The position numbers were made by a program, and so were the translations under genes. A stretch of DNA of 64,000 nucleotides. It comes from Acanthopleura granulata (lineage: Eukaryota; Mollusca; Polyplacophora; Chitonida; Chitonidae). Within the stretch, counting starts at the first letter, position 1. Every line of letters starts with the position of its first letter. This document shows positions 21,402-61,228 of the stretch, piece after piece. The stretch covers positions 12,218,370-12,282,369 of the forward strand of contig JABBOT010000009.1 of the NCBI GenBank assembly GCA_016165875.1. The letters are read 5' to 3'. The notes beneath the pieces were generated by a model. The model was not told where the DNA came from. It saw only the letters and a list, made by a program, of their open reading frames with translations, and searched no databases.

Positions 21402-24400
21402 TTATAACGCTGTGTGCGTGCCGAATGAACTGGTGCTACTGCTTGTGCTCAGGCTTAAAACACTTCCACGAACACTGTCCTCATCGCCGAATGAGTCATG
21501 TGACGCCTCAGCAATTTCTGCTGCATTCAAGCCCATTTCTACAGTCTCTCTGTCAAACTCCTCTATACGCCGTGCCTGCCTCTCGTGAAGCTCCTTCAGT
21601 TTACGAGCACGTTCTTCTTGGTATTTTATTCGCTCCTCGTCCATCTGAAAATCAGGAGTAATGACATCAACATATCATTTATTGCTTTATTCCAATGAAT
21701 GTCCTTTGATGTCATACAGTCACTGTGTATTGGAGAGTTTTCACTTACATGATGCTGGTCAGTTTCACTGAAGGAAACAGGAATAAACCATCGACTTTTG
21801 GCAACTTACCGATGAATTTTACCCCATTTGAAAGACATACATCGAATCGAAAGCCCCAGTATAAATTGGAACCTAGTTCACTTCCTGTGTATGTAATAGT
21901 TTCCCAAATATGCAATCAGTATTTGTGGGGGCAACATGCAGATGGTCGTTTGCTTACTTGGACTTTGTCCCATTTCCTCCCAACCTAATTCAGTACAATG
22001 TGAACCACCAATAAATACATAATATATGCCTATGTGATAAAAATAACTATTACAAACACATTTTTGTTCATGGACAGACAGACATTTGAGCCACTGTCCG
22101 GTTTTAGGAAGCCAACTAGGCTAAGTAAGCCCTTAAACCACGACAGAGATATCAACGGCATTTAGCAGAGGGCTACATTACCCTAAGTAAACTTCATGAA
22201 GGTGAGCCCTAGTTCATAAAGACAGCAGCAAACACAAGATATTAAATTCAACCTAAAACCCCAGTGAACACTGACTTTTTGCTCCAGTAGCGCTCTCCTC
22301 AATGACACCCTATCCTCCAGAGCTTTTCTCTCCCTCTGATGCTGTGCTTCTGTCTGCATTTTGATTTTACTCTGGTAAGCCGTCAGCAACTCCAGTTCCT
22401 GTAACAGCCTCTGTTTAAGCTCATTAGCCTCAGCAACCTGTGTCTCATCCAGTCGTACCTGTCAAGTGGGGAGACAACAAGGTAACGGCATGGAATGTTA
22501 ATGTAAATAATGAGAGTTCAGTCAGTTCTGCTACCTTGCCAACCACTATCTATTTAATTTAATTAATGATCATAGCACTGATACTGAAACTTTGAGAAAC
22601 ATTTTTATGCTTGGAAATTAAACCAGAATAAGCTTATTCAAGTTTTGCAAATATCGTGTTACACATACACGTGGAATGAATATAAAACAAAACTTTGTTT
22701 CAAAAACCAACCAACCAGTTCTTTTTTGACCACCTTTCACATTTCTTTGTTTTTTTGTTTTTTTTGTTTTTGTTTATTTTGCAACACTTACGAATATTCC
22801 TTTTTGTAGCAGCCTGAACAATTACTATTCATTAGTGTACACAACATGCCTAAAACATTTCACTCTTTTCCTATATCTGGTATACTCTCTTCATGTTGCT
22901 TAACATTTTGAAGACATGTTTTTTGCTGTATAATTTCAAATACACTCTGTTCATATTGTTCATGCTTAATATTGTTCTTGTAGCTTATGTTATATATTCT
23001 GTTCATATTGCTAATGCTTACACTCTGCTGTTGCAGCATTTCCAGTATACCCTGTTCATATTGCTAATGCTTACACCCTGCTGTTGTAGCATTTCCAGTC
23101 TACCCTGTTCATATTGCTAATGCTTACACTCTGCTGTTGTAGCATATCCAGTCTACCCTGTTCATATTGCTAATGCTTACACTCTGCTGTTGTAGCATTT
23201 CCAGTCTACCCTGTTCATATTGCTAATGCTTACACTCTGCTGTTGTCACATATCCAGTCTACCCTGTTCATATTGCTAATGCTTACACTCTGCTGTTGCA
23301 GCATTTCCAGTCTACCCTGTTCATCTTGCTAATGCTTACACTCTGCTGTTGCAGCATTTCCAGTATACCCTGTTCATATTGCTAATGCTTACACACTGCT
23401 GTTGTAGCATTTCCAGTCTACCCTGTTCATATTGCTAATGCTTACACTCTGCTGTTGTCACATATCCAGTCTACCCTGTTCATATTGCTAATGCTTACAC
23501 TCTGCTGTTGTAGCATATCCAGTCTACCCTGTTCATATTACTAATGCTTACACTCTGCTGTTGTAGCATTTCCAGTCTACCCTATTCATATTGCTAATGC
23601 TTACACTCTGCTGTTGTCACATATCCAGTCTACCCTGTTCATATTGCTAATGCTTACACTCTGCTGTTGTAGCATTTCCAGTCTACCCTGTTCATATTGC
23701 CAATGCTTACACTCTGCTGTTGTCATATTTCCAGTCTACCCTGTTCATATTGCTAATGCTTACAACTTTTGTTGTAGCATATCACATTAACTCTTCCCCT
23801 GTTGCTAATGCTTATACTTTGTTGTTGAGGCAGATTCGAAATACTGTTCGTATTTCTAATGCCAACAGTTTGCTGTTGCACCATATCCAATATACCCTGT
23901 TCATACTGCTTATACATGTAGAGGCTTACATTTTGCTGTTGTAGCATATCAGATATACCCTGTTCATACTGCTTATACATGTAGAGGCTTACATTTTTGC
24001 TATTGTAGAGTATCAGATATACCCTGCTCATATTGCTTATACATGTGGAGGCTTACATTTTGCTATTGTAGAGTATCAGATATACCCTGTTCATACTGCT
24101 TATACATGTAGAGGCTTACATTTTGCTATTGTAGCATATCAGATATACTCTGTTCATACTGCTTATACATGTAGAGGCTTACATTTTGCTATTGTAGCAT
24201 ATCAGATATACCCTGTTCATACTGCTTATACATGTAGAGGCTTACATTTTGCTGTTGTAGAGTATCAGATATACCCTGTTCATACTGCTTATACATGTAG
24301 AGGCTTACATTTTGCTGTTGTAGCATATCAGATATACTCTGTTCATATTGCTCTCCTAGTATTGCCAGCTTCCTCATCTGTTCCTCTTTAAGTTTTTTCA

Positions 24401-61228: not shown

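Follow-up and report, generated by a model that had tools for sequence, protein, structure and literature searches.

Tandem arrays at exon edges of a chiton genome resemble amphioxus mirages

Within a window of 64,000 nucleotides of the Acanthopleura granulata genome (assembly GCA_016165875.1, contig JABBOT010000009.1, positions 12,218,370 to 12,282,369; window coordinates below count from its first letter), five exon edges of two unrelated genes adjoin tandem repeats whose units carry a splice site. This raises the question of whether such arrays are a splicing device, whether exon edges are places where minisatellites preferentially arise, or whether the founding duplications fell across exon edges by chance. 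Both genes lie on the minus strand. The kinase gene encodes a TAO kinase (TAOK; PDB 6bdn match, E 1.9e-119) and the esterase gene is of the YbfF/ABHD11 type by homology; we take it to be ABHD11, the name given in the first-pass annotation, whose exon numbers are also used here. That annotation had pointed out the arrays at these exons, and TRF and self-similarity scans bore it out on all five:

22924..24362, minus strand: TAOK exon 17 donor, two adjoining arrays, 53 bp x 17 and 63 bp x 8 (TRF, self-similarity, edge probe)
24309..24521, minus strand: TAOK exon 17, coding, exon-proximal edge 24309 (exon caller)
29635..30136, minus strand: TAOK exon 12 donor, degenerate 21-bp array, edge 30127 (TRF, self-similarity, edge probe)
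39143..39559, minus strand: TAOK exon 6 donor, decayed array, edge 39545 (self-similarity, edge probe)
56595..57118, minus strand: ABHD11 exon 4 donor, 37/73-bp array, edge 57087 (TRF, self-similarity, edge probe)
59569..59821, minus strand: ABHD11 exon 2 acceptor, 72-bp array, edge 59623 (TRF, self-similarity, edge probe)

The TRF rows at these places were 22999-23910 (53 bp x 17.3) and 23865-24352 (63 bp x 7.7) at TAOK exon 17, rows of 21/42 bp between 29730 and 30122 at TAOK exon 12, 56609-57037 (37/73 bp) at ABHD11 exon 4 and 59579-59810 (72 bp x 3.2) at ABHD11 exon 2. The self-similarity scan found 15 segments in the window, six of which make up the five exon-edge arrays and cover about 3.0 kb, somewhat more than the 2.6 kb or so first estimated. 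Their identity ranged from 31 to 40 of 40, compared to a maximum of 28/40 in one simulated Markov sequence of window size. Among the nine segments elsewhere are minisatellites of 93, 42 and 33 bp, one microsatellite and a pair of dispersed repeats; three of the nine served for comparison:

16786..17097: 93-bp minisatellite, no called exon adjoining (TRF, self-similarity, exon caller)
26508..26774: 42-bp minisatellite in a TAOK intron, away from any exon edge (TRF, self-similarity)
40024..40283: 33/66-bp minisatellite in a TAOK intron, away from any exon edge, which by eye looks SINE-derived (TRF, self-similarity)

To relate the units to the exons, edge probes of 45 exon and 30 intron nucleotides were aligned to the more distant copies of each array. 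Homology reaching into the exon was strong at TAOK exon 17 (72/74 in the 63-bp part, 57/65 in the 53-bp part), at the ABHD11 exon 4 donor (48/54) and at the ABHD11 exon 2 acceptor (66/75). It was present at TAOK exon 6 (37/43, including 16 exon nucleotides, the exon part alone not exceeding shuffles). At TAOK exon 12 the match of 27/29 includes just the last three exon nucleotides: the unit is a CAG|GTAyGG donor plus intron, and exon homology stops there. The claim that each unit is the exon edge with its own splice site thus holds for four of the five arrays, all of which contain the exon-intron boundary and exon sequence as mirages do, and gives way at TAOK exon 12, where homology is confined to a few bases. 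Both kinds of boundary are involved: of the five window arrays, four lie at donors and one at an acceptor. The plainest example is TAOK exon 17, whose unit consists of the exon end, GTAAGC and the intron start, with the exon-proximal donor at 24309. Nineteen donors there score at least 5 bits, seven of them 7.5 (the exon's own among these) and 12 of them 5.3. A 402-base query from its 53-bp array, searched against the genome DNA (606,523,666 bases, 87 contigs), returned six matches, none outside the array itself, so this unit does not behave as a dispersed or transposable repeat.

Arrays of this kind recur outside the window, at donors and acceptors alike, for example in NF1, G-alpha and aminopeptidase genes. 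We drew a blind sample of 10-kb stretches at preset places on ten contigs (19 stretches, 190 kb) and added two 10-kb window flanks, giving 210 kb. TRF reported 30 arrays in these 210 kb (period at least 15, span above 75), and self-similar arrays made up 7.6% of the blind 190 kb. Twelve of the 30 TRF arrays and one decayed segment were read by eye; because the choice favoured those with coding sequence close by or units resembling donors, they give cases and no rate. Ten of the 13 contained or abutted an apparent exon edge, and the other three (L018, L019 3349 and L024) had no clear exon by eye. The ten, all from by-eye reading, are as follows:

L011 3549-5776: donor array, 117 bp x 19, GT in 19/19 copies
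L017 8246-8963: donor array, 27 bp x 26, beside an exon matching FANCF (1.1e-8)
L012 3617-4142, plus strand: donor array, 42 bp x 12, spectrin-repeat gene
L012 2185-2565: second array in the spectrin-repeat gene, intronic unit
L019 7569-8040: array in a G-alpha gene, two decayed copies
L025 5609-5744: array starting at a donor, NF1 (PDB E 1.5e-65)
L025 7561-7933: second NF1 array, ending short of the acceptor
L010 7998-8294: array abutting an edge, DyP-type peroxidase gene
L027 8379-8809: array abutting an apparent edge, no homology found
L008 4729-5098: acceptor array in a Rab gene, window flank

The spectrin-repeat assignment comes from other exons in the L012 stretch, and the last exon beside the L008 array is presumably that of RAB35. 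The L011 exon looks like VPS13, an assignment to which Pfam and PDB lend no support. A further array, of 18/36 bp (L028 7190-8212, minus strand), holds about 340 open codons with repeats like ESFLTKDSCLTED; this open frame may code for a repetitive protein or may be produced by the array structure itself.

If the copied splice sites were maintained as a device offering stepwise alternative exon ends, they should be conserved beyond the rest of the unit. Copies were extracted by wraparound alignment from nine arrays, TAOK exon 17 counting as two. Splice cores differed from consensus at 138/1129 positions and the rest of the units at 392/5117, and stratified by array the Mantel-Haenszel odds ratio was 1.08 (P=0.50), so conservation of the sites does not exceed that of the units that contain them. 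The fresher donor arrays do keep GT in nearly all copies (15/17 and 8/8 at TAOK exon 17, 19/19 in L011, 11/12 in L012 with one unread), which speaks for such a device, but the more decayed ones retain it in only 6/13 (ABHD11 exon 4) and 13/23 (TAOK exon 12). AG or GT thus stands in many but not all copies, from 19/19 down to 6/13, which is the pattern of mirages; the three copies at the ABHD11 exon 2 acceptor all have AG.

The reading frames tell a similar story. Continued from the exon, the frame meets a stop after 39 codons at TAOK exon 17, 48 at TAOK exon 12, 15 at TAOK exon 6, 16 at ABHD11 exon 4, 17 in L011 and 32 in L017, that is, after 15-48 codons in six of seven donor arrays. The seventh, L012 3617-4142, differs from these six in staying open for 163 codons, and the ABHD11 acceptor array lies entirely within one open frame; we count both against a neutral reading. 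Judged from the sequence, the first extra donor at TAOK exon 17 could add 21 amino acids in frame and the second a unit that holds a stop, while the ABHD11 acceptor units could add 24 or 48 amino acids. Several units are multiples of three (63, 21, 72, 117, 27 and 42 bp), and the part of the A. granulata genome paper available to us mentions high alternative splicing (PMC7850002), both of which would suit selected devices; units of 53, 37, 32 and 67 bp, however, shift the frame. With splice cores that decay like their units and frames that close in 6/7 donor arrays, the earlier suggestion of selection for stepwise exon ends finds no support, and we consider it quite improbable. Framed by eye, six of the seven donor arrays (TAOK12, TAOK17, ABHD11-4, L011, L017 and L012) sit at phase-0 introns and TAOK6 at phase 1, a predominance that could be chance given the few cases.

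The arrays might instead be steps in intron creation. The amphioxus globin paper, in the part available to us, proposed an intron-gain model in line with the Rogers model of AG|GT tandem duplication (PMC3087553), and the anatomy of the chiton arrays fits it. One unit moreover holds both kinds of site: at L038 (C6:16469675-16470575), 37-bp units read GTAAGT...CTGACTAAC...ACAG, combining a donor with a branch-like motif and an acceptor. At ABHD11 exon 4, however, a homologue alignment spans the exon-proximal donor with a two-residue gap there, and this conservation of the protein across the edge, where tested, implies that the array added no coding exon at this place; no new exon was seen by eye between copies. 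At ABHD11 exon 2 the alignment begins 15 residues inside the exon, so that the acceptor edge falls outside it. Overall, intron creation appears quite improbable as the explanation of these arrays. Array copy numbers can be wrong in assemblies made from nanopore and short reads, and collapsed or falsely expanded repeats could in principle have produced the arrays. Against this, the copies differ from one another, decay has set in at some arrays, and unrelated genes carry them, all of which makes an assembly artefact extremely unlikely.

Whether exon edges attract arrays is a matter of counting. Exon calling combined a codon model with splice-site weights, array bases being excluded from the coding score. 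A score cut of 18, below which exons were excluded, gave no calls in 100 kb of simulated sequence, with incomplete recall (three of the five window edges were recovered) and with some calls within intronless channel genes or repeats retained. In the window a series of Kv-like channel reading frames with apparently few introns runs along the minus strand at 593-7508, with more at L007 7889-8530. One Kv-type frame (4486-5511) contains a match to the potassium channel RNA editing signal, Rfam RF00485, at 4744-4857 on the minus strand (69.7 bits, E 4.1e-12).

Across all sampled sequence 10/58 arrays abutted a called edge, compared to 5.1 by random placement (P=0.022; P=0.036 and 0.054 with other score cuts). 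The corresponding figures were 7/38 against 3.4 expected in the blind sample (P=0.048), 3/15 against 1.3 in the window (P=0.12) and 0/4 against 0.3 in kinase-anchored stretches, a held-out set of just four arrays and 38 edges. In the 190 kb of the blind sample, seven of 110 called edges had an abutting array, one of these being doubtful (L010 8541-8623, beside an uncertain edge in an apparent last exon). When each array was reduced to one seed unit, the excess was 6 against 3.1 overall (P=0.09) and 3 against 1.7 in the blind sample (P=0.24).

Distance from the edge gave two different pictures. The proximal ends of blind-sample arrays, in 120-bp bins from the edge, numbered 7,1,3,3,3,4,1,..., with 7/28 of the arrays within 1.6 kb falling in the first bin. 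In the same sample array bases were scarcer close to edges, covering 4.1% of the first 20 bp compared to 10.6% at 640-1280 bp, and this speaks against edge seeding as judged by coverage with distance into introns. Array units showed no overall enrichment of donor motifs of at least 6 bits (8/30, compared to 9.5 in shuffled units and 7.5 in the genomic control); at 10 bits or more the counts were 2/30 against 0.5 and 0.7. Rows with a period below 15 or a span of 75 or less, units without all four bases and overlapping rows were left out of this motif count.

Genome-wide, the donor motif CAGGTAAGT was repeated at 20-50 bp in 178 places, compared to 44 for the reversed motif; on contigs C1-C15, among the matches listed and grouped by hand, there were 31 loci against 11. 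Single occurrences numbered 8521 against 4585, and tandem loci per occurrence were 1.5 times the reversed control (binomial P=0.15). The degenerate donor MAGGTRAGT gave pairs in 825 places against 288 control places, not normalised by single-motif counts, and 22 loci on C1 among the matches listed, again grouped by hand. Single degenerate motifs outside arrays stood at 16 against 16 in 324 kb, too few to use, and only 2/103 called donors match this motif. Eight donor-pair loci were fetched, and in three a coding exon ends at the array: a leucine aminopeptidase (1.3e-22), a Sushi exon (2.1e-6) and a weak EGF-like match (about 1e-3, under Pfam cut-offs). The other five showed no exon by eye for about 750 bp, but the array could extend further upstream. 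At C1:1782575-1785958 (minus strand) we observed a long run of donor motifs, with a spacing of about 43 bp in some parts and about 104-122 bp in others.

These counts bear on the idea that exon edges are true hot spots of minisatellite birth, through a chromatin step, R-loops or splicing-tied repair. The abutting arrays (P=0.022) and their pile-up by distance, the tandem donor pairs before normalisation and the five window edges seen by eye speak for it. Against it stand the seed-level and blind counts, the normalised donor pairs, the absence of any rise in coverage towards edges, units without donor-motif enrichment, the kinase-anchored stretches and the doubtful one among the seven blind matches. 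Together the counts point to an excess of roughly 1.5 to 2-fold at exon edges, well short of tenfold and not firmly shown. With 7.6% array coverage and P values from 0.02 to 0.15, five cases cannot be called too many for chance as had been proposed, and preferential origin at exon boundaries is likewise not established (P=0.09 at seed level, P=0.15 for donor pairs). Hot spots are possible but doubtful. The wider version, in which edges would be a standing minisatellite birthplace affecting thousands of exons at about twice the intron rate, general in some animals and steadily supplying raw material for alternative exon ends and for the growth of introns, is unlikely.

The reading we prefer is that the arrays are mirages, probably founded by tandem duplications that spanned an exon edge by chance, with the extra copies tolerated near-neutrally. 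A founding duplication across the edge, presumably by slippage or unequal exchange, would leave splice site and coding end as they were in the copy adjoining the exon, so that further copies would land in the intron, the exon would be unaltered and the array would be free to grow, shrink and decay almost neutrally. Arrays would be tolerated because the exon-proximal splice site, which we infer to be the copy mainly used, still serves. In favour of neutral mirages we count edge homology in 4/5 arrays, core decay equal to unit decay, closed frames in 6/7, the homologue spanning the ABHD11 exon 4 donor, 7.6% array coverage and the lack of donor-motif enrichment; the excess of 1.5 to 2 times at edges in several counts weighs on the other side. 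On this view array frequency mainly reflects the minisatellite density of the genome, and the excess at edges is perhaps twofold. The copies give the impression of clutter that a repeat-rich genome tolerates, not of a device for splicing.

Should several per cent of the exon edges have an adjoining array, this genome would be well suited to studying how the spliceosome picks one of several near-identical sites in a row and how introns lengthen through tandem duplication. Gene prediction may also place exon ends wrongly where such arrays occur.

Arrays at exon boundaries have precedents. Canestro et al. 2002 is said to be the founding mirage paper, and Turri, Cuin and Porter 1995 reportedly described a minisatellite in a human interferon-induced transcript, which we take to be gene 6-16/IFI6; that is a single human locus, unlike the recurrent chiton arrays. 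Human segmental duplications, in the part of the paper available to us, carry variable internal tandem repeats at exon-intron boundaries (PMC2812944). Like the chiton arrays, they place tandem units at boundaries, with possible effects on splice sites; they differ in lying in recent paralogues, about half of them in coding sequence. A 27-bp intronic minisatellite is reported in an abalone kinase gene, with no mention of an exon-edge span in the available part of the paper (PMC6905558). The words 'tandem repeat' and 'minisatellite' are absent from the main texts of two chiton genome papers, and our literature search, whose coverage leaves out many journals, yielded no mollusc mirage and no genome-wide count among the matches listed.

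The first-pass annotation had known of no described system of splice-site arrays, which overlooked the mirages of amphioxus (PMC3087553). In the excerpts available to us, these are minisatellites across exon-intron boundaries of Adh3, the globins BflGb6 and BflGb9, TnC and PGBD5, with units of 10-72 bp in Adh3 and 150-160 bp in BflGb6, regular splicing reported as undisturbed, and length polymorphism and somatic instability among their features (PMC3087553, PMC3902484). The same excerpts treat genes singly. The chiton arrays come from a mollusc, are partly blind-sampled and are known from the sequence of one haploid assembly. As far as those excerpts go, the two have in common tandem units at either exon end and AG or GT in many copies. 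The chiton arrays belong to this described kind, and what seems to be new, in a kind already known, is the taxon and a first estimate of frequency.
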